From Odontesthes bonariensis (lineage: Eukaryota > Chordata > Actinopteri > Atheriniformes > Atherinopsidae), in assembly GCF_027942865.1 (NCBI RefSeq), contig NC_134524.1, positions 21,009,536-21,073,535 on the forward strand: a stretch of 64,000 bases of DNA. The letters run 5' to 3'. A program made the translations under genes and the position numbers. The notes under the pieces are model-generated. The model had not been told where the DNA came from, made no database searches, and saw only the letters and a list, made by a program, of their open reading frames with translations. Below are positions 3,026-63,174 of this stretch, in pieces. Each line of letters starts with the position of its first letter. Positions within the stretch are counted from its first letter, which is position 1.

Positions 3026-20843
<17,818 letters not shown>

Positions 20844-24396: not shown

Positions 24397-25393
24397 AAGT
24401 ATTCGCTCATCTGCCTTTACACTCATATGAATTTAAGTGGCATCCCATTCTTAATCCAGAGGGTTTAATATGACGTCGGCCCACCCTTTGCAGCTATAAC
24501 AGCTTCAACTCTTCTGGGCAAGCTTTTCACAAGATTTAGGTGTGTTTATGGGGATTTTTAATAATTCTTCCAGAAGCTCGTTTGTGGGGTCAGACACTGA
24601 TGTTGGACGAGAAGGCCTGACTCGCAGTATCCGCTCTAATTCATTCCAAAAGGTGTTCTATCGGGTTGAGGTCAGGACTCTGTGCAGGCCAGTCAAGTTC
24701 TTCCACACCAAACTTGCTCATCCATGTCCTTATGGACCTTGGATTGTGCAGTTGTGTGCAGTAATGTTGGAACAGGAAGGGGCCGTCCTCAAACTGTTTC
24801 CACAAAGTTGGGAGCATGAAATTGTCCAAAATCTCTTGGTATGCTGAAGCATTCAGAGTTCCTTTCCCTGGAACTAAGGGGCCAAGCCCAGCTCCTGAAA
24901 AACAACCCCACATCATGATCCCCCCTCCACCAAACTTTAATATTGGCAGACAAGTAACCGTTCTCCTGGCAACCGCTAAACCCAGACTCGCCCATTAGAT
25001 TGCCAGATGGAGAAGCGTGAATCGTCACTCCAGAGAACGCGCCTCCACTGCTCTAGAGTTCAGTGGCTGCGTGCTCTGTCATTTTACGTGGCCTAACACT
25101 TCGTGGCTGAGTTCCCGTCATTTCCAATCGCTTCCACTTTGTTATAACACCACTGACAGTTGACTGTGGAATATTTAGTAGTGAGGAAATTTCACGACTG
25201 GACTTGTTGCACAGGTGGCATCCTATCACGGCACCATGCTGGAATTCACTGCAACCCATTCTTTCACAAATGTTAGTGGAAGCATTCTGCATGCCGAGGT
25301 GCTTGGATCTATACACCTGTGGCCATGGAAGTGATCGGAACACCTGAATTTAAATATGTGGATGAGTGAGTGAAAACTTTTGGCAATTTAGTG
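24397..25393 (-). mobile_element. Degenerate Tc1-like transposon
   Basis: Two minus-strand frames show an IS630/Tc1 transposase. The N-terminal part has IPQSTVSGVITKWKR (helix-turn-helix region); the C-terminal part has MMWGCFSG and [12 protein letters not shown], which carries the final acidic residue of the DDE catalytic set. The frames are separated by frame breaks. Imperfect terminal repeats are seen near 24397-24445 and 25340-25393. The left end has run into a TA microsatellite. The element is dead. Confidence 0.9.
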
Positions 25394-25976: not shown

Positions 25977-26820
25977 TCACATGATAGGCCTGGGCTGCTG
26001 GGTGAGCAGAAGGCCGAAACGTTTCTTCAACTGCACCCGGTGGCGGGAGAACTTGTCGTCAGGGGAGAAACGAGCCGGGTGGGCCGAGGTGGTGGGCTGT
26101 CCATCGGGTCTCACCTTCTGTTGGTGGCAAACACAGAAAGAGTCATTTGAGTGTTGGTGTCGGATAATGATATAAAGACCAAATATACACTCGCGTGTAC
26201 ATTTTGAAATACTTCAGAAATCTATGGGCAACAATTCTTTCATTGTACCTGCTTGAGGTATTATATTTTCTAATAAAGTTACAAACAATTTTAGAGCATT
26301 TACTTCTGGCACAAATAACACATCGTACTGTTTTGTTGCTGCTGTTGTTGGTTTGTCATTTCCAAACCTCTTTGGTGAGTCCTTGTGTGACGAAATCCAA
26401 CTAAATCCCCACAATTCTAATTGTAATGATCGTGTTAATAATACGATAAAAGTTCGCAGTAATGACGTCACATCAATAACGTATGGAGACAGATTCATAT
26501 TTTCCAAGGAACCAACAACTCATAAGAACTCATAAAATTGATCAAAAATTAAATGCTAGGGGTGTTTTTTTGCCAATTTTTTTTTTAAACCTTAATCAAA
26601 ATTATTCACTGTATAAACAGGAATCGTTATTTCCCCTGCTATTACTAACTGGTACAAGTTAGTTTTCGATCCTACAACAGTTTCAGGTTTAACATTATGA
26701 ACCCCACGAGCCAAAAGACGTTTATAACGTCACGTTCAAACGGTGTAAACACAACGTTAGCGTTACCTTCAGGGTGTAGACTCGGTCCCCGCTTTCATTT
26801 AAGTAAAACTGCAGAAACAT
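25977..26820 (-). CDS. nop10: H/ACA ribonucleoprotein subunit Nop10
   Basis: Nop10 is one of the four core proteins of H/ACA snoRNPs (with dyskerin, Nhp2 and Gar1). It acts in nucleolar pseudouridylation of rRNA, in scaRNPs and in telomerase RNA stability. Two exons: 26767-26820 (18 codons, starting [18 protein letters not shown]) and 25977-26117 (46 codons plus stop). The product is 64 aa, the same length as human NOP10. The core [18 protein letters not shown], which binds the dyskerin homologue, is intact, and the protein ends TQQPRPIM. It is minus-strand and lies between slc12a6 and the plus-strand NUT-like gene, as in human. GC-rich sequence with a GGATATCCGG core lies upstream near 26975-26985 and may belong to its promoter. 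Confidence 0.97.
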
Positions 26821-27801: not shown

Positions 27802-30800
27802 ATGGATCCAGCGTTGGCCTCTCCGCCTGAAATCATCCTAGATGACAGAGCGGATTATTCTCAGCCAGGAGGCCTACACTGCCCTCATTTCTCGCCACTA
27901 TTTTCTGCTGGCAGATGCGCTCCATGGGAAGGTCCAGATAATCACAAACATGTCCCTCAAGTGAGCTACGAAATCTTCGAAAGTGAAGCGTTTTGTCCTT
28001 TGGGGGTTCATCAGATAAAAATGTCTCACCCTGCATTGCTGAAGCCGCCCACAGTTGCAGAAATATTCAGAAACAGACTGTGTTGTGATCAAAGGGACCA
28101 GCTATCGGTGCAGCATGTTCTCCACAGCCCGACTCAGCCCATCCAAGCCCAGCAGAGCCCCCTCTGCCATGGCTTCCACACCACATCGCCTCCTGGTGCT
28201 GGTGTCCAACCTGGAATGCCATCACTCCCGTGTAGCCCATGTGCTCCTCATGACTCCAGCTGGATGAATATGAGTCCTCTCTCCTCCCCACCTTGTCAGG
28301 GGTTTTGTTGGTGTCCCTGTATGCTGGCCCCCATCAGCAGCCCATCAGATGTCTGCTCCTGTGCATATTTACCTCCTCACCCATGGCTCCTCAAGTCTAA
28401 AGTTCATCCCCGCTGGTGCTTGTGCCCGCAGGCGGTGCCTGTCCATCAGACCTGCAGTCCAGCTCTGTAAGGGATCAACGCCACTTTTGATAGCCCCTGC
28501 GTTTTCTGTTATATTGGTGAATCCTTGATGTGGTACTGAGTCAAACTGCGTATTCTTGACCACAGGGATTCAAGGACAAGAGACAACGAGCAGTTGAATG
28601 GAAATGTAACGCTGGAGTCAGAGACAATCGGAGAGGAGGCCAAGACACAAGGTCAGAGATGAAAACCTTACAAAAAGTGCAGCCATACATTACTAGTATG
28701 CAAAAGTAGCCAGACTTCCCTCTCATCTTTTAAAGTGGTCTTGAGCAATACTTCTGCAAGACTTCTGAATGTCTTTTCAAGGTTTTGGTTTGGACATTGG
28801 CTGCTTTTTCACACATTTTCAATCCAACCCCACCATGTTCTGAGGGAATGTGCTTTTTTTTTTGCTTGCCCTGTTTAATCATTGTAAATATTAATAATTT
28901 TTTGAGCTACTTGACTAATTTGAATTTGAATTTGAACTAATGAATAAAGTATTTTTCTATTCTATTTTATTAACGCCCAATGTGACATATATGTCACATT
29001 ACAGATCTCTGACAGTGGGGGGTGGTATTTTGAAAAAAATGTCAGAAATTTGTTCTATGTGGTCTATTTAGTCTGTGTTATGACCCCCTTAATTTTCATC
29101 TAAGTAGAAATGGGTCCGGGTTCTTATGGGTTAAGGGATGACAGACTGATTGTGTCTACACACGACACATGGCCTTTTGGTTAAGGAACCAATTTTAAAT
29201 GACATCTTTGGGCACTTTGTTACTCGAAGCTTGAAAACTGCTTAAATAATTGACAAGAAAGCTGGTCTAGGAGGGTTCGGGTGGTGTTGAAGAATAACGG
29301 TGCTCATACTAAACACAGACTTAAAGCTAAACATCAGTATTTAGTCACTGCAAGAACTCTGAAGTACTCGGCCTGTCTGATGCTTTCTGTCTTTCATCAC
29401 AGGAGAACAGCAGAGAACTGTCACACCCGGAGTGCACGAGCTCCAAGAAAACCAGCCAGATCACAAGCTAACAGAATTCAAAGTTTCTCCCGGATCTTCA
29501 CCTGCTTGGGAGGAACAACTCGTCGCATTTGAGGCCTACGCGGACTACAAGACGATAATGGACTCGCTCTGTCCCGAGGTTCCCAACTCTAGGCAGTAGA
29601 AACCATCGGATTTACCTTTAGACTGTCAGAATTGACGCCTTTCCTGATTTGTAAATTGGTGTTTGTTGCGTGAAACTAACTCGCCATCACCTGTTTCCCC
29701 CGCTCTCTCTCTCAGATTCCAGGAAAAGACGAGTGTGACATCAGGGAGAAAGGAGAAACAGGAAACTTCTCATTTCTGGAGTACCTGGATGAGTTGTGCA
29801 GCGATGAGGACTTCATGACAGAAGTATGTTTATCAGTAGCATTACCATGTCACAGTTTTCCGCACTAACACTTTATTTTCAGTGAAGCAGAGTGTTAAGA
29901 AAAGGATTTCCAGGTAAAGGTGGACAGAGTAGGTTAAATCTCCCCAAAAAGGTGGGGCAATCAATCTTTTATCTTTGTAATCTTGCCATTCCCTGTCTAA
30001 ATACTCAAAGGATAGCCTGGCTCTGGGAAACTATTTCGATTTTTTTTTGGTGTGCAATACAAGCTTGTTTTTAATCTCTGAATTCTCCAACAATCTCTAC
30101 TGGGGACGGGTCAGGACTGCAGGCTGGTCAGTCCAGTACAGGAAAACCTCTTCTTCTACAGACACGTCTGTGTAAAGTGCGCAGAACGTGTTTTTCCCTC
30201 GTCTTGGTGTATAATTAGGATACTCATACAACGCCATACCGCCATAGAGCCTTGCTTTTGGACTTTTGGACCAATAATACTGATTGGTCTGTCCACAATA
30301 CACCTATCCATTGTGTGACGGTCCATCTCAGATGCCTCCTAGTCCAGAGAAGTTAACGGCACCTTTGGACAAAGTCAAATTTTATTTTATTTTTTTTTCC
30401 AAGTACCTTTTGCCTGTGCAGCTACATCAACCATTGTTGAATGGTTTTTGGTGGAACGCAACCTGAGGGACTGAAGATCACCGGTGTCCAATTTAGCCTT
30501 GCACCCCCTTGCCCTTTACTCAGGGAAATTCCTCCAGAATACTTGATTCAATTTGCGATATTTCACACTGTAGAAGAAGAAATAATGATCAACGATAATA
30601 AAGCGAAATGATGAGAATAGTGCAAAATACTCTAAATGAATAATGGGAATTGTGGGCTCGCTAATGAGGACTCAGGTATCCAAATGCCTTGTCATGTAAT
30701 TAGTGACGACATGCCATTGTTGGTTCACTAACAAGAGATGCAGTGTTAATAAAACACCCATGATAACGTTGTAAGTGATCATGTTTCAGTAGATGTTAGA

Positions 30801-33800
30801 CCCTCTGTTAATCATTTCAGACTAATTGATCCTTTTGTACACCTTCACATGCTGAAGGCCACAGATTCTGTTCACATGCAGGGTACGGAAATAGTACACA
30901 CTTGGTAAAATGTCTCCATTTAGTGTGGATCATACAGGTGGAATGTAGGACTTTATTTCTCTGTGTCCACGTGACTCATCCACATTTCTTTCTGTCAGGT
31001 GGAGTCGATCCTGAATACTGACCAGCTGAACTCCCTCCTCTCCTCAGACCCGGACACCATTGATATTTTTGACCTGGGGCAACAACAGGAGGAGGTAACG
31101 AGTGTTTAAGCGCCGTAAATGTTCACCATTGCACTTTCAGCTCTTTGTTTTATCGTTTCTGTTGGATGACAGCATGCCGTAAGACTGTCCCCTTGACTCC
31201 TTTCCCAATTCGCACAAGCTTGATTCCTCTCCTGGACTCCTATGCTCGCACCTTAGAACCCTCCCACCAAAGGTGTCCTTCAAAACTGAGCCTTTTTCCA
31301 TTTGGTACCTCCACATGGTTGCCATCTTAACTGGTCGTGTGGTAAATTACCAGGAATACGTCACAGACTGACACTGCAAGTGTGTTTTGATACTGGAGGG
31401 ACCGTCTAAGTGAGCCTCCACCGTCTCATTCCGTTGTAAAATTAGACATTTATATGAGTCTGCAAAAACTGTTGCAGCCAGCCTGCATTAATCGATTTGA
31501 CAGGAAGGATCCTGTCATCTGATCCAAACTCCCCTGATAGCAGCACATTTTGAAGGTGACTGGGAGGGGTGAATGCAGGCTTCTCCAAGTCAGCACCCGA
31601 CCCATTCGTGGCGTTTTACTGTTGCAAGTGTGCAATATGTGTCATTTGTAATGGTTACGAAAGACTGCATGCATTGGGAATTATGTGGAATTTATATTGT
31701 TGCCATTTAAATTTGCCGTAACCGTGACAGCAACAGTTGCGTCCAGGACAATTATCCCAACAAGTACAATAAAGTTTATCATACTGCATCTTATCTTATC
31801 GTACCATAAATTATAGCTTTGCTTCCGTCTGATAAGGATCAAAGCCACAGCTGAGGTAAAATGTAAATATAAATGTACTTTATTTATACAGCCCTTTACA
31901 GACAATCCTTACGATGTACCAAAGTGCTTTACAGCAGGTAATAAATAAGGAGAAGAATAAGTAAAAACAAATAAAAACGATATGAGAACAGTAAGAGCAA
32001 TAAAATACAACAAAATCGAATAAGATCAAATAAGATAAAAGTGTCATCATACTACTGGGTATTAAAAGCAATCCTAAATAAGTAGGTTTTTAGCCTAGAT
32101 CTGAAGAGGCCCAGGTCAGAAATAAGACGTAGCTTAACGGGGAGCTTATACCAGAGCCTGGGGGCAGCAACAGAAAAGGCTCGGTCACCCCAGGGTTTGT
32201 ATTCTGACCCGGGGACTTCCAGTAAAAATTAATTTGTTGACCTCAGAGCTCTACCAGGATTGCGGACTGTTAAAAGCTCATATAAATATGATGGGGCGAG
32301 GCCGTTAAGAGCTTTAAAAACAAACATTAAAAGTTTAAAATCAATTCTATAAAGGACAGGAAGCCAATGGAGGGAGTTAAGAACAGGAGTGATGTGCACA
32401 CGTCTGTTGGTGTTGATTAAAAGACGGGCAGCAGCGTTCTGCACAAGTTGAAGGCGACTGAGAGACGCTGACATAAAGCGCATTGCAATAGTCTGACCTT
32501 GAACTTATTAGGGCATGGATGGCTTTCTCGAGGTCATCACGACTTAAAAACATTTTAACTTTGGCCAGGAGACGCAACTGGAAAAACATAGTCCTGATGA
32601 CCTTGTTCATTTGTTTGTCCAACCTCAGATGACTGTCAAAGGTCACTCCCAGATTTCTGGCGGTTGAACTAAGTTTTCAAGACAAGGCAAAGCCAGCCGT
32701 CACAGTATCCCCAAAACACAATGAACTCAGTTCAGTCATTTAAATGAAGAAAACTTTGGGCCAACCACTGCTTAATATCAGCAATACAATTAAACAAAGA
32801 ACATTGTTACTAGGTAGAAGAATCTAAATATGATGATCGGCAAAAGAACAGTTGCATTGTTGGCGGGTTGTTAGAACTGTGTGGATGAGTACAAGAAGGC
32901 AGCATGTTATGATAAGGTCCCTGCTTTCTTATTCCAACATCATCTGCAGGAAATTCTTGCCATGTTCATTTGATCCCCTGGCATTTCAGGTCTGTGGTGA
33001 AACTTTAAATCAATTCCCAAAATACTGTAATCTCTCACTCATCTCCCTCTTTTCCTACAGACAACCCTGAGAGAGAACTCACACCTACTTCCTGTCAGCA
33101 ACGGACCCGTCACCGTGGAGACATCTCGGCCGACTTCACACGGTGACCAAACGCTTCAGCGCCCAGTCTTGGATCCTCCGAGCATAAAGACCGAACCAAA
33201 CCACACCGGACAAACGTCACCAGAAAAGGTGGGACCAAAGGAGGCCCGGGGAACCAGTTCCCGGCCCTTGCCGCCACATCCTCAAGAGGACTCCACTGAG
33301 GCTACACCTGAGGGTCACATATTTCCACCAGGCGAAGAACACGACAGCCCAGCTTTGCTTAACACCTGCGCCAGCGTTTGCCACCACTGCTCCTTTCTCA
33401 AGCAAAAGAGGTTTGCTTCTCACGCAACCCAAACTGAGAATTTCTCAGACTCGGTCAATGAAACGGCAAAACCACCCCGATCGGAACCTGCCGCCGACCT
33501 CGGAGCAAAAGCACAAGGTGAAAGCGAGAGAGGATGCGGAGAAAATCTGGAGACGTGTGCTGGAGCAGGAGAGACACAAAAGCAGGAAAGCGTGGCAGAA
33601 ACTTGGTCAACAAAGGTTTTTGAAAAGGAGGTGGACATTAAAGACATCCCGAAACCTCCGAGGCTGCCCAGCCAAAGTGAAAAAGAAGAAGAAAAGTGCT
33701 CAGTGGTAGGAGCAGGGGAGAGGAAACCAACTGAAAAGAACTTGGCGAAAACACCTGAATTCACCCCAAAGGGGGATTTGGGGGAAAAACAGAGAAAGTA

Positions 33801-34599
33801 CTCGAGGAGAAGACAATTATTTAAAGGAGAGGAGGGCGAGTGTAAAGGGCAGTGCTCAGGGACAGCAGAGAAAGAGGAACAGAAAGAGCTTACAGGAGAG
33901 ATGCATAAATTACAGGTGTATGCTGGGAATCCCCTCCATTTCTGCACAGAAATGGGGCCAAATGAGACTTGTTCATCCAAGACTCAAGGAAAGGAGAGAC
34001 CAGAGGAGGGGAATCAAACATCTGGATTTGTGAGGCCAAGAACGAGGAGTATAGCGGCAGAAGAAAGAGTACAGACAACACCCACGACCAGGGGGAGAGT
34101 CAAATGCTCAGAGACGAAGCCCTCACCCAAGAGAGAACTGGAGATAAACCTGCAGGAAACCACAAGTGAGCCACAGTTCCTGCCAGCTGCAAGTCCAACA
34201 AAAAGAAGCAGAAGAATGAGAGCGGAAAAGACGGCAGGCAAGGCCAAGGTTGCAAAGAAAGATTTGACGGCACACAAAGCCAAGATTTCCAGAAACGGGG
34301 GTCGTCCTGCTCAGACGCAGATGAAAAAAGAATCATTAAGGGGTGCGAAAAATGTTCCGAAAGGTCCAAGAGAGGCAGCACTGGATGACCGGTGCGAGGC
34401 CAAGCATCCCACCACAAGGCTGAGGGCACAGTCTGCCATTAGGTGCGGGGAAAGTCCAAAATCACCCCCCACTCTGCTCCCAGAGTCGAATCAAAAAACT
34501 CCGCAACAAAGGACTGCAGTCCTGGAAACAAAAACTTTGGGAGTAAAGTCTAAAATTTCAAAAAGGCAGAAGAAGAAGCTGAAAAAGGAAAACTTTTAA
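27802..34599 (+). CDS. nutm1: NUT-family protein (NUTM1-like), six coding exons
   Basis: Mammalian NUT recruits p300/CBP and drives histone hyperacetylation in spermatids; here that role is inference only. Exons: 27802-28466, 28566-28651, 29403-29578, 29716-29823, 30999-31094, 33061-34599; all junctions are GT-AG and phase-consistent, giving 889 aa. The start MDPALASPPEII follows an acceptor at 27775; an upstream in-frame Met at 27589 would lie in intron. Residues 1-221 are Pro/Ser/Cys-rich. Residues about 327-376, with FSFLEYLDELCSDEDFMTE followed by VESILNTDQLNSLLSSDPD, resemble the acidic segment of human NUT, within the region reported to bind p300. The 512-codon last exon is Lys/Glu-rich with basic nuclear-localisation-like clusters and ends KRQKKKLKKENF, recalling the basic NUT C-terminus. 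Its place between nop10 and lpcat4, on the opposite strand, matches human NUTM1. The first exon and start are the least certain parts. Confidence 0.75.
28974..29130. mobile_element. Short TTAA-flanked MITE
   Basis: A 157-bp segment flanked by TTAA at 28970-28973 and 29131-29134. The ends CGCCCAATGTG and CTTATGGG form a short, imperfect inverted repeat. It lies in an intron of the NUT-like gene after an AT-rich tail that may be a LINE end. Confidence 0.45.
30095..30195 (-). mobile_element. Tc1/mariner transposon scrap
   Basis: The stretch around GGTCAGGACTGCAGGCTGG resembles, in reverse, the part of a fish Tc1/mariner transposase gene that encodes the conserved SPDL motif. It is too short and too decayed to give ends. 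Confidence 0.35.
31868..32680 (-). mobile_element. L2/CR1-type LINE, 3' fragment
   Basis: The minus-strand frames at about 32377-32646 and 32229-32483 encode the end of a LINE reverse transcriptase, including RLQLVQNAAARLL, HITPVLNSLHWLPV and KALNGLAPSYL, all hallmarks of L2/CR1-clade elements. A frameshift separates the two frames. A 3' untranslated tail follows toward lower coordinates and ends near TATAAATAAAGTACATTTAT at about 31870. The copy is 5'-truncated and inactive. It lies in intron 5 of the NUT-like gene, in the opposite orientation. Confidence 0.88.
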
Positions 34600-35405: not shown

Positions 35406-38400
35406 TCATTCAAACTTCTTTTTACTTTTGTGAGCGACTCCGTTGTTGTTTACAGCCTTCCCATTGGCCAGCAGAGTGAGTGACCCTCGAGAGCCCGCCT
35501 CCTCGGGCATCAGGTACTCGCTTAAAACCCTCTGATAGGTCGGGTGGGTCGTCAGCACTCGCAGCAGATTTTCTGTGGGCCAAATGATCCGTCAGTTTAA
35601 TGCCAACCGACAACGACACAACGCCATAACTGTGCCTTTAGAATAACCTCATTCTAACCGTCTCAACTCTGTTCGGGGTTGTTTGAGTACAATGTGTAAG
35701 CTCTGTGCCAATAATGAGACTGTATTTCACAGTTTTCGCTCGTGCTGGAAACAGCTGCCTGTCTGGAAGTAACCAAGCATGCTGCTGGGGAGGCAGCACC
35801 AAGCCGACACTCTTACTGAGGGGACGCTCCCTGTTCCAGCACCACTTACACGACCAAATGACCACAGATGCTCACCTTCCGTAAGCGTGCCCTGACTGGA
35901 GGCCTCGGCGTAAAGTGCAGCAGTGTTGTGCTGGGGAAGGCCCAGCAGCGCCCCCATGAGGCCCGAGAGCTCCCCTGCACTCAGGCTGCCTCTGCCCTCT
36001 GTGTCAAACAACTGCAAAACAAGAGACAGCGCATTCAGAACAAAGAGAAACCAGCAGCAGCAGGTGTTCATCTTCTTTATTTGCAGTCAGGGGAACATCG
36101 ATCCTCTGGATAAAACGAGGACTTACAGGAAAAGCAGTGTGAAGAAGTGACTTGAAGCTGGTGAATCCGGTAAGGGCCGAAATACTCAAACAGACCTGCC
36201 TGAGGTCCACACTTTCATCCTGAAGATGGAAACAAACAAAAAAAGGGTTTACACGTGTGAACGGAGATTCAATCCGGTTCAGGCCTTGCAAACAGCCGGC
36301 ACTGAAACAAACACTCATCTGTTAGCAAACTGCTCCCATTCTCCGAACACCGAGGCTGCACTCTGAACAGACCCGTGTGCGTTCTGAAGAGCAGAAGGGA
36401 AAGCAGCTTTCTCTACACCTTCTGCATGTTACTGGCAGCAGAAAACCTGCACTGCATTAAGAGGCATTTTCTGGAACATCCGAGGCTTCCATTAAAACAG
36501 CCGCAGGAACTCTTACAGTCCCAGAAAACACCAGATTAAACACCAGACTGGTAACATCAAAGAGAAGCCCAGAGGACCATCCAATCTCGTTTCCAGAAAT
36601 AGGTGCAGCGAAGTTGGAAAAAAATAAATTAGAATAAATAAATCAAGCAGTTAATCTTGGATATTCACACACACACACAGACAGAAATGAGCATACCTTT
36701 GAGTACAGGCCACAGATACGGACGGCTGTTCGTTTATCCGTCAATGCCAGAATAGAGGCGAGCTCCTCTGCGCTGGCCTTTGACCCTGGAGCACCTGAGC
36801 GACACCTGTCAGTCATTCTGTCCAGCGCCACTTCTACCTCATGCGCTCCCAGACTGAGAGACAAAGAAAGAAAGTGACGCTCATTAAAGCCAAACAGCAT
36901 TTACGCAGATTTAGCCAAACATAAAAGGACTTTTTTTTTCTTTTTACCCATTTTTGTGCAGCAGTGACAGCGTTTCCCTGGCAGGAGAGTCCAGAGGCAG
37001 CGAGAGACCGCCGAGTTTACTCACAGGAACTCGGCCCTCCATCACATAGTCTGTAGCTGGGATTCCTAAAGCCCTGAGGCACAGAACCCAATTACACAAT
37101 GTTAATTAAACAATGTGACAGCCATGGGGTTCCCACAAATGAACCAGAGCGTGAGTAATTACAGTTCCACGGAAAGGTGAGTTCGACCTCAGGTCCTCTG
37201 AACTAGACAGACCTGAACACACCAGTTGAAACACTTATAACAAAACTCTTCCACTATTCCAAGCTGACCAGTAAAATATGGCTCATCGGTACCATCTAGT
37301 GGCAGCCATGTGCAAGGACAGCCCTGTCACAGCTCCAAGACACAAGATGCCTGGTAGATAGTGTTCAGCAGTGCAGGGAAGCCTCAACTCACAATTATCG
37401 CCAGTCCTTTTATTTAGCTTTCATAATATGAATCTGTGTGCTTGACAAATCTTACTTGGCCACGAGCTTCTGAACATTGTCTGCATACAGGTTGGGGTCA
37501 TTCTTCTCCTCCTGGGACGGGTTGTAAACTGGCAGGAACTGCGGCACAATTTAGAAAAATAAAAATAAATTAAAAAAGGACATAATTCTTTCATTTACTC
37601 ACAGCAACTGCTTAATGGTAAGAAAAAGGGTCAACTTTGAGACAAATAAGATCATGAATAAAGAAAAATAAATAAATTTTAAAAAAAACACTCCCTGTTA
37701 AGATTTTTTTTCCTTTCTTAAAGCAATGTTATGACAAGGCAAGAAGTGGTGACCGACCTGGCTAAGAACGATCAGTTACACCTCCGGACACCCACACACC
37801 ATTACTGCTAATTAAGATCTTTGCCGGATCCGTTTAGAGAATATTCTGTGAAATCAATCCCATGGTCTCACCTCAACTGTCATGTTGGTGTAGAACTGTG
37901 AAGTGGTGTGCCACAGTGCTTCTGTCCTGATGGATAAAAAGATCACATTTCATTCAACAGCACTCCTGACAGGTGCCCAATTCACTTCAGCGCCAAACTG
38001 ACTGCAAAGACCGTCGAAGGGGTCCATTTCTAAGGCTTCAAATCTAATCTCTCGTCTAAGAACATGTGCCGACCGCTCGGGTAGCTGTAGCTGACCAGGC
38101 CAACCAGATTGTAGCACTGAAGACGTAAACCAGGCACCGACAGTTTAAACAGGACCCCCGAAACATAAACACACACAGTGGGTCTGGACTGACAGCGCTG
38201 TGAGACGAACTCCTCTATAACAACATGAGATGCTTAGAACAAACATATTTGGGAGAATGATCAAATGAATGAGAGTAGAAACTAAAATCACAATTCAAGA
38301 CATCTAAATGCATTTCTTTGAAGGTTCTTAAAGCGTTTGAGACTCTAAAGTTCCATTTTTATCTGTCTTTATCTCATCTTTTAACTAAGATGAATGTCCA

Positions 38401-38520
38401 AACCCAAAAAGACTTCATCCAACTACAGTTGTGACTGATATAGATCTAATAAGTTGCCTCTCAGACTCAGCTTTCACCAAAACAGCTCTTATGAGCACAC
38501 AGCGATGCTTAAGAGAGTTG

Positions 38521-38557
<37 letters not shown>

Positions 38558-40724
38558 GGCTGGAATTCCTGGAAGCTCCAGAGTTTACATTTCGCCCTGC
38601 TTGTGTTGCAACCCAGCGCTTCCACCGCTGCGGCGTCCGACAGATACAAGCCCAGGAAAGACTGAGGAACTCACCAGGTTGTTCCTTTGTACGTCCAGCG
38701 GACGGTATCCTAAGGAAGAGCCATAAAAGCACTCGTCAAACAGTGGAAACTTTATAAGGATGAAGAAGAAAAAAAAAAAAAAAAAACTTTGGCACAGACA
38801 GAGGGAGTGTTTTGTTTTTAACTGCACGCCTCATTTCACTCACATTTCCCTCATTAAACACCCCGACAGGTATGCAAACACTGGCCTGGTCAAACATTAC
38901 AGTTATGCCCAGTGACATGACTACAGCCTGTTAAAAATGTAGGCACACACACACACACACAAAAAAAACAAAAAAAGGTGATGTAATGCATCTCACTACC
39001 ACACCATCCGCCTTTTTAAGACTCAAGTCTTTGACATGATGACATAAAAACAACACGGAAGGACTTCTTTTGGTTTGTCACAGGGTTGTTTTTCCACTTA
39101 AATCAGCACCTAGCTCCAAAGTATATTCTATAAATAAACCTGACTGGACTCTTGGACATTTGGCCGATGCTTCTGTACAGTTACAGCGAAGATGAATTCC
39201 TGACTGATCCACCTCAATATGCCCCACCAAAAAACAAAAAAAACAACAACAAAAAAAAAAAAGCGACAAATTGAAGTGCAGCGCCGAATCGACATGGAGC
39301 ATGATGTTCTTAAAGCAATTGCGTGGAGAGCAGCCACTTCTTGTGAGCCCACTCCTGGTGGCACACTGCGGCCGATTTATCTCCAGTCTTTATATTCCAC
39401 GTCGACGTTATTGTCGATGCTGAAGTCGGTCACGGTCAAATGAAGGCGCACTGAAATGCACCTAAAAGCAATTCGACCGAGTTCATATCAGCAACCCACT
39501 GCATCAGCTATGGGCTTCAGTGAGGACGGCAACTGGTGATGCATGATGGACAAGAAAGTCCAGTCGCACTGGAACTGTACGAATTTACGCCCTGCTCCGA
39601 ACAGAAAAGCTGGATTTCCTGCCAAATCTATCATTTGTTCCATTTCAAACTGCTGAATACCAGGGCTGGGTGTGACCGACTGCTACGCTTTTACTACACC
39701 GAAAACAGAAAAAAAAAACGCAAGATACCAAAAGGATGAAAATACTTTTAGAAAGTCAATTTTTTCAAGTTGCGAATCAAATCAAGATTTTTATACAAAT
39801 CACCCCCCATACACACACACACCCCCCCCTCTAAAGTCTATACTGTGCAGTCTCTCATGCATTGTACAGCACTTTTCAGAAAGCTGCTCGTTTGCCTGAT
39901 CAACACCGTTAATCGTTTTTATATCATCCATGTCTGAAAGGGCCTCCCCTCACTTCGCAGCTGCAAGCATCTATGAAATAAACCCGACCACCCCAGCGAT
40001 TCCACTCACCAATTTGTTTGGGTAATGCAACAGAACTGGTTGGACGGGGACTCCGGCGAGGAAGGCACCTGGAGTGGAAATGGAGAAGAGAGACCGGAAT
40101 GACCGAGAGAAATACCTCAGAGCAAGGAGCAGTCAGACATTAGGTTGCAACACAACGAGCTGCAACGCCCTTCTCTCTCTCTCTCGTGCCACTCATTCCA
40201 ACGTGATTTGTACAAACATCACCTGAGCAGCATGTTCCGTCTTAGTCATGGAGGAAATAAAAACAGACCGGATAGACTGCACTGATTAGCAAGAGCACCA
40301 CATGTTCAGTTTTTATTTTTTTCATGTTCTCTTGCATGCGTTTTACTCACCAGGCTTGAATTTGAGGAGAGCGCGGCCATTAGTTGTAGTTCCCTCGGGA
40401 AACATCAGCATCTAGACAGGAAACATCAAATGTCAGCGTACGAGTTGAGCCCCGTTACTGAGACGGAGGTACACGAGCATCGAGCTCTCACCTGAGGCCA
40501 GAGGCCTTCAGAGGTCAGCCTCTCGTTGAGCTGAGCGACGGCCTTTCTCCTCGACTCTGGATCCTTCCTGCTCACGATCACAGCCTGGTTAAACTCCAGC
40601 AGAGCTGAAACACAGTTAAGGAGAAAAACAAAACATAAAAACAGTCACAAGAACTAAATTGGAGGGGAAAAAAAAAACAAAAACAGGGAATGGGTCCAAA
40701 CTAAGCAAGAAAAAAAATAAATAA

Positions 40725-40758
<34 letters not shown>

Positions 40759-43700
40759 AGAGAGGAAGTACCAGAGCAGACTAGAAGCCAATGGAGTGAG
40801 TCACTTGTTGATCTTTGGACTTCCTTTCATGATTATTTATATATTTTTTTGGTTTAATCTTCCCATCTATTCTAAATAATGCTCTCATTAACTCTTTCGG
40901 TGCCATAGACGTCAATTTAAAAAAAAACGTTCACTGCCAAAGACGTCTATAGACGTCAATTGCGTTTTTTAACGGAGCGGGCTGGGGGACAATCTAGCGG
41001 AGTTCGTCACTAAATCTTAGGCTTGTAAACACTAAACAGAGAATATACTGGCAAAATTACCCGCAAGGTGGCAGCAGTGCCACTTTGCACAAAAAAAGAA
41101 AAAGCGTGTTTTCTCCGTTTTTTGGGTCAAACAGCTGATTTTGGTGAAACCAACCCATGTTCTACTGTCTATTACTAAAAGACTGAAAATGGTAGAAACA
41201 AACTTTTTTTTCCTGATCAAAGAAGAGAGTCTACTCTTTCTTTTGGTAATTTCGGTGTGTACATAGTCATAAGACACACTTTTCTGAGAGTCTTGGAAAA
41301 TCAGTCAAAATACTGAAAAACACTTGGCAGTATGGGTGGCTCTGAACTGAAAATGGCTGGCAGCCAATGAGTTAAACAAGTAATAGGTGGAGAACTTTGT
41401 GTGGGATTTCTTATCTTCGGGCGCATGGCACTAAAAGTGTCATTTGATCTGAAAGCGGCAAACACCGAGGAATGAATTATTGACCCGCTCCTGCTGGTCC
41501 GCAGCTGTCAAAGAAGTTCTGGGTGAGTCAATAAGCAGAGAATCATAAAAAAATTTAAAAAAAACACCCCCAATGCTCACTCAGAGCCAATTCCAACAGT
41601 CTCCTTTCCGTTCCTGGGCCATTTACACGGACAAACAACTTGAGCTAAACAGAACTCGTAACCCGATTCGAAAATGAGCGTTTTTAAAAAAATGCGAACC
41701 ATCTGGCATCTCAAAGCTCTCCTCTGTGTCCGACAATAAAGGCTACAAAAGCCACCTCATTAAAAGGTAAAGCCGGTTTCAAAGTCCATAATATGCACAC
41801 GTGTCATCTGAAGAATTGGGGTAAAAGGACAAAGACTAAAAGAAAATGACAATCTGCGATATTTTAACACTAAACACAGCTTCAACAACAGTTCGATGGA
41901 GGTTCTTGAAAGAGCGTGCGGCTTCTTGCGGAAACACCCTGAGCCTTCACCCCACTGAATAACACCCTTGGTTTGGCTGAAAGGATTTTCACAAAGCAAG
42001 TCAGATTGGAGTCTGTATAGATCAAATCTTATGGAACTACAGGGACTCACGGACCATTTGGGGGCTCCCATTGAGGTTTTGGGTCGAGTTTGTTTTCCTG
42101 AGTTAGGGTCGCTGCCCAAGAACAACAGTCAGGTCTTAAATAACACTTAAAAAAAAAAAAGAAAAAAAAAAAGGCAGTTCTCACAATGAACAATGTCACG
42201 AGGCAAAAATCATACCTTCAGGGAAAACCAATTGTTTAGTTTGTCCCTTATGGGCTATGGTAGTGACATACTGCTGCAACAAGGTTGAGCAGTAAGAAAG
42301 GAGACTCGTGGCAACTTCTGATGCAAGCTACTTATCATCACGAAAACATAAGCCCCTTTCACACTGCCGAATAACCCGCGTTTAATTCGCGAATTTAGCG
42401 TGTCCGCTGTTGCGTTCACACTGCCGACCCGGGCTGCCGCGTCAACTCGACTTTCGACCCGCGTCGGACCCTAGTCTTTTTGCCGAGCCGAGTTTGATGT
42501 GAACGCAATCGACACGGGTCGGACGTGGGCGTGGTGTGATGTGAGGAGTTTAAAAGACAGAATGGACAGCTGATTCAGAACAACAGCGACAGGTGAGGAC
42601 AAGTTTTACTCTGTTTTGGCCTACATCAAGTTGGAGACATTTTTTAATATAGCCAACTGGGGAGACAAGGAGGTCCGCGAGCGCCTCAACCTCCGAGCAG
42701 AGGACGTTATTTTCCGCCACATTTCAGGGACGGTGAAAGATGGACCTCTGCTGGAAGGGCTGGCGAGGAAGATGGGAGAGCGCGGTTTCCCACGCACCGT
42801 AAAGTAACATCTCCATGAACTGCAAATACAATTGCATAAACGATATCTCAAGGTGTCCCGCCATCGTTTGTTTGAAAAATTTAATGCAGACAGGTGTATT
42901 TAACCCTACCTCCGACGCATGGCTTGTGCCTACGTCATTGTACACGCCCAGCATTTTATGTGTTTCGTGTGACGCTCTGCCACTAGGCAACGCCCCCTGA
43001 ACTCGGCTTCAGGCGACACGGGTCGCTCTGACACGCCAAGCGTTCACATTGCTCGACGCGGGTCGAAGGTGCAATTTGGACAGTGTGAAAGGGGCTTTTG
43101 TCATGACTACGATACTGCATTTCTGCCGATTGACTGTCCCGAATGAAATATGCAACTTCCACCGATTCAAAACAGAGAAAGCAACCAGAAGCGGAGTGGA
43201 GCTTGGCATTTTTCCTCGTTTTAACTTGCTAAAGTCCAGAGCCGCAGCCGCTTACCTCCGATGACGGGCAGGCTGGTATTCTCCGAACGTGACACCACCG
43301 TCGCCAGCTCGGTGAGACACAGAACCAGCATGTCCAGGAAGCCGCTGTGGGGCGCCACCACCAGAACCGGCGCCTCCTTCAGGCCGGCCCTGCGACCTTT
43401 GACCCTCACCCACAGGAAACCCAGGGAGAAGAACACGGCTCGGCTCAAGAACAGGATGATCGGGTGGAAAAACCAGTGCCTCCAGCCCGTTACGGGTCGC
43501 GAGCGCTCCTCTGCAGAAAGGCCTGCCAGTCGCAGTCGGGCAAGAGGCCATGTGATGAGGAAGAGCAAAGCCGCCAGAGTGATGCGTAGAGGGAAGAGGA
43601 CGCTGCCCAGGATGATTCCCTACAGCATCAGAGGGGGAGAAAAGATTAAATACTGTTCTAATCAACATGTAAGCGTCTTTATAGGGCAGGGATTCTTTTG

Positions 43701-59400: not shown

Positions 59401-62400
59401 GGTTGACTATCTCGCAGCGCAGCAGGTCCTGAGCCTGACTTTGGTCGGTTTCAGGCTTGGATGGCCAGAACAACACCCAGTCTGCTGAGCTGCAGCAGGA
59501 GAACAGACTGCACACACAGACGGGTGAATAAGAAAAGCAGCCTTGCTCCATTTGTTACAGAGCAATCAAGTTTTTTCTTCTTTTCTTTGAACACCAACAG
59601 ATGCACTGTCAACATGACGTCAGGCCGAATGGAAACATGTATTCCTTTGACTTTTGCATCGGAGCTAAATTTGACACAGATCCCGGTTAATTAAACTGTA
59701 AATCTTAAAAAAAATAAATAAATCCACACATAGGCTGTGGTTATCGTGGACGCCTTGGGTCACCTGAACAGCGTGGCGTCCAGGTAGCAGGAGTTGAGGT
59801 GACCCTGGATGCCTCTCTTCCAGCCCCGGTAGAGCTCTCTGGCATCCTCGGCGCCCACGGGAGGAGTGTGCTCCTCCACCCGCTCGCTGCCCCACTCTGC
59901 AAACGCTGCCAGCCGCGGACACACAGAGGAACAGTCTTACGTAACCAATGGCAACCTCACCCTCAAACACGTTAGAATCCTCTCTGTCAGCACATTTTCA
60001 ACAAGTCGGTCAGACAGTGAAGGGCACATTTACGGCCATCTAAGAGAGCCATTGTCTGGGATATTTCAGCAACCCTCTCTGCTGTGTCTGTGTGTGTGTG
60101 TGTGTGTTTGGTTGTTTCTTCAGCTATGGCAACATGGCTCCCATTCCTTCACAGCGCTTTTGATGGGCTTTTTTTAGTGCTACCAACAGCTACACAACAA
60201 CAAAAGGCAAAGTCGGTGCGGCAGCCATGGCTGCGGCTCAGCAAGTTGAACAAGTTGTCCATTAAACCTTAAAGGGATAGTTCGCCTCTTTTGACATGAA
60301 GCTGTATGACATCCCATATTAGCAATATCATTTATGAACATTGACTTACCCCCCGCTGCGTCCTGTGAGCCGAGTTCCAGCCGAGTTTTGGCGTGTACGA
60401 AGGTAGTCCGGCTAGTTTATAAAGTTGTTTTGTAACGTCCCCATGCCAGTAATGTGAGAACCATGCATATGGTTTTGATGGTAAGGCTTGTGACTTTATT
60501 GTCGGATGGTTTATAAAGTGGTGTGACGTTTCTGCAGTGTGCAAGTTGTTGTTTTACGTGGAAGGGTTAGCAGTTGCCCCTTAGCCACCACGTATTAGCC
60601 TCGCATGACACGCTGTGCGAACAGCGCGATCTCCACACAGGGAGCGCAGATTTGCACCTCTCTGTGTCCTACTATCAGTATTTGACAACCTCTAGCAATG
60701 GAAATGCGCTTCAAATGCCCCGGAGTTCCCCTTTAAAATAGCTGCACAGGGGATTTCGGTTTGCTTTGGAAAGCAGTTTGAGCAGCAGAGATGCAGCCCA
60801 ATTTATCAAGCGTTCTAATATTCACACTTACTGAGGCAAATTATCGCCGATTTCATCACGATAAGGGGCTGGGCCGAACTTACAGACTCAACTTGTACAT
60901 AAAATGTGTGTCGTTAACATTTGCCAACATAGGGGGAAAACAAAAAAAAAAACAAAAAAAAAAACAAAAAAAAACAAACAAAAAAAAAAACGCTAGTGAA
61001 GTTGATCCCTGCTCCGTCTCTCTCAGTGTGATCTTCCGACTTCTCTGGTGCCAAGACGGCTTTAAGAGCCCCACAACAAGCCAAGGATCAGAACCCTCCG
61101 TCTCCCACCTGCGGGTGGAGTCTATGAGTGCGGGTGGTGCTGTCCTACCTATGGAGTTGCATCGCGCCACTTGATTAACGGGCATCTCGGGGGCGGGGAA
61201 CCTGGAGTCACGCCTGCAGTTGCGAAGCTTGACAAACAGCCCCTTGTTGGCCGGGCAACGGAAGTGACGCTCGCCGAGATAACTGCCATCAGTCCCAGCG
61301 GACAGCTCCTCGTCCTGGCACACACACAAAAATCCAATATCACAATCTGCTTTAATTGCTTTGATGCATGTAAAAAATATGAATAAAATCAAGTAGCTGA
61401 ATAATAGTAAAATGAACTCATGAAATATGTCAGCACTTATTCCCAAAGGCTACCTCAGTCTCTACTTATGTACATCAGGTCTTTTTTAAATAAAATCTCA
61501 AATAATAAAAAAAATGAAATAAAAGAAAACAAACACTCAAGCTGTTGTATTTAGGTCAATGAAAGAACTGAAACCAAAGTTTCCTTACCAGCTCGATTCC
61601 AGCCACTGCCTCAGTAATGCCGCTTATTTGTCCGATCCAGCGGATGACGCCGAAAAGCGGCGGTTCGTTCACCTCGACCATCGACCCCACCTCCAACTCG
61701 CTGCCCGGTCCTGCCTCTCCATTCTCCCCCGAGCTCTCACCGGGATCCGGTGTCCTCCGAGGCGAAGGGGGCCTGTACATGCCTTCGGCGTACTGCAGCT
61801 GGTCGGAGGCGGTTGGCGATGCCGGGCTTTGGGGTTTTGGAGGCGGTAGAGGGGGAGTCGGTTGGGGTTTCTGCTGGGTGGGTTTCGGCGGAGGCAGAGG
61901 AGGAGGTCCAAGCGCTGGTTTGGAAGGGGGCAACAGAGCAGTCCTGGGGGCAGCAGCAGCAGCAGGCGGCGACGTTGGGGACGGCTTAGTGACAGGGGGC
62001 AGTACTGGCTTCAGGATCGATTTGGGAATCTGGTGAGGAGGAGTGTGATGATAGGATTTTTGTTCTGAGGGCAGAGAAATTTCAAAATAGATTTAAGGCC
62101 CAGAGCATCACCGAGTCTTTTTTGTTCATTGAGACGAGCGTTTCAGCTGAGATTACTGCCGAACCAAATCCATTTTAAAGAGGGTAAACTGTGGCCATAC
62201 CTGAGGAAACCTTGCTGACTGGAAGCAGTAGTCCATAGATGGAAGATGGAATGTGACAGAGCTTCTCTCCCTTGTAATACCCGTCCCATTTACCGACAGG
62301 AGCGTCCTGTGAAGTGAAGCACAGAGTGAAACATCAAACCAAGGCTCTGGTGTTTCAAGATGAAGCAACGAAGCTTACAGTTTCAACGCCTCTCTGACTT

Positions 62401-62924
62401 GTTACGGTCTTACTTTGTGCTTTTGTGGATTTGATGATGACCATACTGACCAGAAGGACGCCGACATACATTCCAGATGAGGATCGGCCAGCCAGGGCAC
62501 CGCAGAAGCGTACCTCCCCGGCGTGGACGGCGTCTTCGAGGGGAAAACACACTCGTTGGCCAACGCAGAACGGCGGAGGCGATGTGGGGACGTGGACCTG
62601 GCTGTGAGACGTGACGGGTGCAGAGTCGGCAGTTCGGGGTAGGATGCCATGTGGCTGTGGCGGGCTACTTGGTTGATGCTGATGGAAACTAATGTGACGC
62701 CTGTGCTGCTGCTGAGGATTTGGACGCTCATTGCTCCCACGTTGCTCGGTGCGGTGGTGGTCTCGGTGGCGGCCTCTCTCGTGTGCGTCTGAATCATCGG
62801 TGCGAGACCAGTGGCGGAGCCTAATGTGACTGACCGGGACGAAGAGGGCGCAGGCATCGGGGCAGGTGAAGTAGCGGTGGCCCTTAAAGGAGCCGTTGCC
62901 CACTCCTTTGCCTGCTGCTGAGCC
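56428..62924 (-). CDS. cyld: CYLD lysine-63/linear ubiquitin deubiquitinase, N-terminus cut by window edge
   Basis: CYLD removes K63- and M1-linked ubiquitin and restrains NF-kB and necroptosis signalling. Exons (high to low): 62451-62924, 62201-62306, 61589-62064, 61149-61314, 59764-59896, 59391-59507, 59085-59176, 58920-58983, 58058-58253, 57569-57677, 57295-57413, 56750-56957, 56428-56612; 814 aa visible against 956 in human CYLD. In order: the end of CAP-Gly 1, a His-rich linker, CAP-Gly 2 ([13 protein letters not shown]), a long Pro-rich stretch (PPLPPPKP), CAP-Gly 3 (FGVIRWIGQ), then the USP domain. The catalytic Cys is in [13 protein letters not shown] (about residue 443), the His in [10 protein letters not shown] (about 729) and the Asp in WLFFDSMAD (about 747). 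A B-box-like zinc motif with several CxxC pairs (CTICQ, CLQC, CQTC) is intact. The protein ends [10 protein letters not shown]. The N-terminal 140-180 residues lie beyond the right edge. Confidence 0.96.
60273..60732. mobile_element. Foldback-family MITE, copy C, in a cyld intron
   Basis: The left part (60273-60417) matches the left arm of the copies at 44107 and 47666. The rest is different sequence, ending GAGTTCCCCT. TTAA flanks both sides (60269-60272 and 60733-60736). It may be a longer ancestral form or a chimera. Confidence 0.65.
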
Positions 62925-63174
62925 CTGGAGGGGGAACAGAAGGGAAACCAGAGTATTAATGAGCCCGTTTCGGGTAACCCTGCGAGGAAGGCGACAGTTA
63001 ATGCTGCAGTTTTGCAAAACTATGCCAACAATATGCCCCCCCCCCCTTGGTCCTAACTGAAGGAGTGACTGTGTGAAAATGCTACTGCTACATATTCTGC
63101 AGCTGCCAAGCTATTCAACCATACTGGCAAGAGATCATGCGGATAATCCAAAATATTTTTGGTGATGAAATTCA

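Follow-up and report, generated by a model that had tools for sequence, protein, structure and literature searches.

Introduction

The testis protein NUT is best known from its fusion to BRD4, which drives NUT carcinoma, an aggressive human cancer. In mouse spermatids, NUT sets off the wave of acetylation that comes before histones are removed. Its ordinary role has been described in the mouse, where NUT binds and stimulates p300, leading to acetylation of histone H4 at K5 and K8, to which BRDT binds, and ultimately to the replacement of histones by protamines (PMC9103113). The same source reports that H4K5/K8 acetylation requires NUT and that male Nut-knockout mice are infertile. A sequence-only reading of the DNA examined here had treated NUT as a gene usually discussed in mammals. 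The view that NUT occurs in mammals only is outdated, as a marker named NUTM1_1-2 already stands in a printed table of snake intron markers, which came from a pipeline that began with anole lizard exons (PMC5723593, in the part that holds this table). Among the open-licence literature matches listed, a fish NUTM1 gene was not the subject of any title or abstract start. In one of these, the medaka article PMC10469501, the link is only a reference-list entry for a tumour paper, as far as its matched part goes. Gene databases may already name such fish genes nutm1.

Here, we describe a NUT-like gene of the fish Odontesthes bonariensis and compare it with these systems. The window denotes the whole stretch of DNA that was analysed, which is 64,000 nucleotides long.

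Results

Gene model and open reading frames

The NUT-like gene occupies positions 27802-34599 of the plus strand of the window. Rebuilding it from coordinates gave six exons with matching phases, separated by five introns that are each of the GT-AG type; the joined exons comprise 2670 bases that encode 889 residues and a stop codon with no internal stops, in agreement with the model proposed in the sequence-only reading. All coding exons lie on the plus strand. Exon 1 (27802..28466, residues 1-221 plus 2 bases) is rich in Cys and Pro and gave no Pfam match in the two overlapping pieces scanned. Exon 2 (28566..28651) covers about residues 222-250, and exon 3 (29403..29578), covering about residues 251-309, contains EAYADYKTIMDSL. 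Exon 4 (29716..29823, residues 310-345) contains SFLEYLDELCS, the counterpart of human TAD1, and exon 5 (30999..31094, residues 346-377) contains VESILNTDQLNSLLSSDPD, the counterpart of TAD2; the two segments quoted in the earlier reading correspond to residues 328-345 and 346-364 of the 889-residue protein. Exon 6 (33061..34599, residues 378-889) ends in a basic tail, with the stop codon at 34597-34599.

Of all frames in the window, the open frame of exon 6 (522 codons) ranks first and that surrounding exon 1 (294 codons) second. Among 200 simulated 64-kb windows from an order-1 Markov model, the longest frame reached 277 codons, and the longest frames had a median of 184 codons. Every one of 2000 shuffles of the joined coding bases contained at least 22 stops. 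The GC fraction was 0.515 for the exons and 0.407 for the introns. Donor sites were scored with an approximate frequency table, by which 2.6% of the window's GT dinucleotides score as high as the exon 2 donor AAG|GTCAGA, while 59% score equal to or better than the exon 3 donor GAG|GTTCCC. The exon 3-4 junction is hence the least certain, since its donor is weak. A search of the fish's own genome (945 Mb) with residues 251-377 returned three matches, all within the NUT-like gene, and exon 6 returned a single match, which is exon 6 itself; no duplicate copy was thus found in this genome with the exon 3-5 or exon 6 queries. Within intron 5, open-frame fragments are present on the minus strand at 32052-32676, of which 32229-32504 and 32377-32676 gave no Pfam match; they presumably resemble the terminal part of a reverse transcriptase from a fish LINE.

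Match to the Pfam NUT family

The 69 residues at 309-377 matched the Pfam NUT family (PF12881) with an E-value of 6.3e-9 and 35.3 bits, exceeding the curated cut-off of 25 bits, and residues 251-377 also exceeded it (E 2.7e-8, 33.2 bits). Exon 4 alone scored below the cut-off (E 0.0051, 15.8 bits), and exon 5 alone gave no Pfam match, though jointly with exon 4 it is part of the 6.3e-9 match. When the segment was shuffled 24 times and reversed once, none of these 25 controls gave a NUT match. The resemblance of a short segment to NUT, claimed in the sequence-only reading, is supported by this profile search. NUT was also the only Pfam match above its cut-off in the fish protein, so that no better match to another family was obtained from Pfam. 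The segment aligned with profile positions 407-466 (60 positions), and the human activation domain aligned with positions 404-472.

When the separate protein pieces were scanned with Pfam, eight of the ten, including exon 5 alone and four pieces of exon 6, gave no NUT match, and the match was absent as well when the unsplit 889-residue protein was scanned, which we guess is due to HMMER filters acting on a long biased sequence. A six-frame family search performed exon by exon gave no NUT match in the fish's own genome or in any of 14 control genomes, which is uninformative because the exons were searched one by one. The fish segment had no sequence match in the PDB at E 10. Among viral contigs, 20 pattern matches were obtained, of which none was confirmed as a relative.

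Comparison with human NUT

The human NUT sequence used for comparison has 1132 residues, and Y405 and S419 fall in it at their published numbers. Its residues 419-470 equal the sequence of PDB 7xez, and the stretch 1-588 matches the Pfam NUT profile at E 1.9e-224. Local alignment of the human and fish activation domains gave a score of 83, compared with a best score of 47 in 500 shuffles. For the whole proteins, the score was 98 against a best of 84 in 300 shuffles, and this alignment falls on the domain plus a little sequence upstream. Without gaps, 13 of the 33 residues of human 409-441 are identical in the fish, a number never reached when the fish protein was shuffled 1000 times (best, 11). 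The proline of TAD1 (human P408) lies opposite a gap in the fish alignment, and the likeness of the region of the second TAD2 helix (human 448-455) is loose.

Outside the domain, alignment with human NUT was at chance level for the N-terminal 309 residues (97/500 shuffles as good), the N-terminal 221 residues (146/500), the exon 6 part (480/500), and the last 120 residues (240/500). The EAYADYKTIMDSL of exon 3 loosely resembles the human EAVKEYVDIMEWL, located directly upstream of the activation domain; this likeness is not significant alone, as 273/500 shuffles were as good for residues 222-325. Sequence likeness to human NUT was accordingly rejected for all these parts, including the C-terminal tail. 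The claim that the basic C-terminus resembles mammalian NUT therefore fails at the sequence level: the last 40 residues of the two proteins carry net charges of +9 and +12, which is a likeness of composition only.

With default settings, tblastn of human NUT on the window gave five weak matches that missed the activation domain of the NUT-like gene. Exon 4 ranked first with BLOSUM45 (E 0.39) and second with masking (E 1.2), so this is a weak and insensitive search that barely recovers the domain. In tblastn searches of doubtful sensitivity, the N-terminal helical region of NUT (about profile positions 200-289) went undetected in the window, and its best match in the fish's own genome had an E-value of 1.98 with two stops; the human query itself scores E 1.8e-61 against the profile. 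This failure is weak evidence, because tblastn is insensitive here.

Pattern of p300 TAZ2 contacts

Sixteen positions within human 409-441, a part of the TAZ2-contacting region 405-455, were defined as contacts, as they either touch TAZ2 or are mutated in a binding-loss variant (PMC9870903, section 7; PMC9755262, section 8). In that section of PMC9755262, the mut1 list prints L427 and C428, at which PDB 7xez has V427 and E428; these labels were probably meant as L417 and C418, and are read so here. Its L440 and L441 are likewise probably L439 and L440, as in PMC9870903 and the PDB chain. Of the 16 contact positions, 14 carry a hydrophobic residue in the fish protein, against none of the 17 others; the two exceptions, at A429 and F435, are polar. 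This concentration has a hypergeometric p of 1.5e-7, which shows that the pattern is kept and is not an independent proof, since the human contacts are hydrophobic by nature. Identity between fish and human amounted to 9/16 at contact positions versus 4/17 at non-contact positions (E416, S419, E428, and S441), with a one-sided Fisher p of 0.058.

AlphaFold was run with no alignment on exon 5 and on exon 4 extended by three intron bases. With modest confidence (mean pLDDT of 66 for the exon 4 query and 77 for the exon 5 query), it predicted helices on SFLEYLDELCS of exon 4 and on TDQLNSLLS of exon 5. An extra helix was predicted where exon 4 begins, and we know of no human counterpart to it. 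The predicted helices on the two motifs lie where section 7 of PMC9870903 describes the helix of the human TAD1 peptide and the first helix of TAD2. The profile positions together with the contact pattern uphold the earlier proposal that the segment corresponds to the acidic, p300-recruiting part of NUT.

The prospective partner was also examined. Nine TAZ matches were detected in the fish's own genome, of which four cover the whole profile in long frames (one each on contigs C4 and C28 and two on C26). These four are read as TAZ2 domains of two p300-type and two CBP-type genes. Teleosts have two genes of each type after their extra genome duplication. The p300-type TAZ2 at locus L005 is identical to the human one at 97 of 98 residues; as only one residue differs, the docking surface is in place.

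Genomic neighbourhood

Upstream of the NUT-like gene lies nop10, which consists of two coding exons on the minus strand (25977..26820; Pfam Nop10p, E 1.4e-15 for the open reading frame 25977-26213), the first coding exon starting from 26820. The two genes are arranged head to head, with about 1 kb separating their start codons. Downstream, an lpcat4-like lysophospholipid acyltransferase gene is located on the minus strand and is convergent with the NUT-like gene; the coordinates 35406..43619 delimit its open frames rather than the gene. Four joined exon translations of it matched Pfam Acyltransferase at E 1.4e-17, and more exon-like frames are present. By its place and motifs, we take it to be LPCAT4 and not a sister LPCAT. 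These matches bear out the position between nop10 and lpcat4, both on the opposite strand, that the sequence-only reading had offered as support. Farther upstream, exons of an slc12a6-like K-Cl cotransporter were found at 3827..7804, on the minus strand like nop10 (Pfam SLC12, E 2.7e-15 for 3827-4411; AA_permease, E 2.1e-6 for 7466-7804); SLC12A6 chains rank best among its PDB matches, nearly tied with SLC12A4. Human 15q14 presumably has the same order and strands, with NUTM1 between NOP10 and LPCAT4. In the pig, a hint that NUTM1 and LPCAT4 adjoin comes from a splice variant that a table lists under LPCAT4 and the text under NUTM1 (PMC6723123, as far as these two places go).

The surrounding DNA contains several other elements. 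A Tc1/mariner-like transposase remnant is situated at 24641-24994 on the minus strand and probably extends to 25349; its DDE_3 match (E 1.2e-4) is below the cut-off and covers 24641-24994, and 25053-25349 of the same strand reads similarly. Minisatellites were located at 476-708 (10-base unit, 23.4 copies) and 8805-8919 (11-base unit, 10.5 copies, 100% matching). Beyond lpcat4, CAP-Gly pieces occur in three open frames on the minus strand at 60883-63110 (E 4.5e-11, plus 3e-5 and 0.002, the latter two below the cut-off), which we assume to belong perhaps to a CYLD- or CLIP-like gene.

Discussion

Identity of the gene and rival explanations

Judging from the domain match, the contact pattern, the fish TAZ2, and the chromosomal place, the NUT-like gene is very probably a divergent fish orthologue of NUTM1, recognisable only in its acidic activation domain (about residues 310-377), through which it would recruit p300/CBP. 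An unrelated acidic activator might instead have come to sit at the same place and to look NUT-like through convergence, as TAZ2 binders share short hydrophobic-acidic motifs. The likeness is indeed confined to one segment, and TAZ2-binding activation domains are described as unrelated in sequence with a common pattern of charge and hydrophobicity (PMC9755262, in the part concerned). Convergence on such a pattern is nevertheless very improbable, for the match spans 60 profile positions and includes the four identities among the 17 non-contact positions, none of the 25 shuffled or reversed copies reproduced it, and human NUTM1 presumably sits between NOP10 and LPCAT4 as well. More improbable still is a decaying remnant of a NUT whose function was lost in fish, leaving traces. 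Most of the protein is without detectable similarity to NUT, as such decay might leave it; the 889 stop-free codons, against the many stops in every shuffle, and a contact pattern that is mostly intact speak for a maintained gene.

The domain may also be real within a partly wrong gene model, such that exons 1-3 or the protein start are foreign and the true upstream exons differ. This we consider unlikely, if less so than the foregoing two. The weak donor of exon 3, the undetected homology of residues 1-309, and a start codon that is a predicted one all leave room for it, against which stand the breaking of the frame when exon 2, exon 3, or both are skipped and the opening of exon 1 over 221 codons. 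Furthermore, tblastn found nothing else in the window that is convincingly NUT-like, in a weak search that barely finds the activation domain itself.

Proposed action and evolution

The fish protein most likely acts by recruiting and activating p300/CBP, because it retains the binding part, and we regard this action as probable. In the nucleus, the short helices of the activation domain would dock on TAZ2 of p300/CBP, which would relieve p300/CBP autoinhibition and raise histone acetylation locally, and the basic C-terminal tail might help the protein to enter the nucleus or to contact chromatin. The likeliest setting, by analogy with the mouse protein, would be the spermatid, with H4 hyperacetylation preceding histone removal, an assignment for which we see about even chances.

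A fish orthologue implies that the gene arose earlier than the divergence between tetrapods and ray-finned fishes, and suggests that the p300-binding part is old and can be studied in fish. An orthologue recognisable only in this segment resembles a natural deletion experiment, which points to the segment as the conserved function; it also suggests an animal in which the p300-binding segment could be removed and tested. Going further, we tentatively propose, as a possibility somewhat on the doubtful side, that the p300-recruiting domain was NUT's original and sole indispensable part, already beside nop10 and lpcat4 in the bony-vertebrate ancestor, and that the N-terminal region and much else were added or fixed later in tetrapods. 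If this is true, histone hyperacetylation in fish spermatids would rely on the same NUT-p300 step, and fishes whose sperm keep histones should show NUT lost or relaxed. The N-terminal region, if absent, may reflect loss in fishes or gain in tetrapods, as one genome is compatible with either.

Comparison with known systems

The TAZ2-binding domains of the p53/p63 type place short amphipathic helices on the same TAZ2 groove that the fish segment would use (PMC9870903, section 7). They belong to other families, whereas NUT alone was matched over its cut-off by the fish protein. The BRD4-NUT fusion and the fish protein would use the same p300-recruiting segment, NUT 396-482 (PMC9755262 and PMC9870903, in the parts that treat it); in contrast to the fusion, the fish product is without a bromodomain part according to Pfam and is encoded by an ordinary gene at its own place. 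Human NUTM1 differs from the fish gene in its length (1132 residues versus 889), in its N-terminal helical region, which was undetected in the fish, and in a C-terminal half that could not be aligned. Human and mouse NUTM1 and the fish gene nonetheless have in common an acidic activation domain of the TAZ2-binding type with the same profile positions and the same hydrophobic contact pattern, a C-terminal end with positive charge, and, presumably, lpcat4 and nop10 as neighbours.
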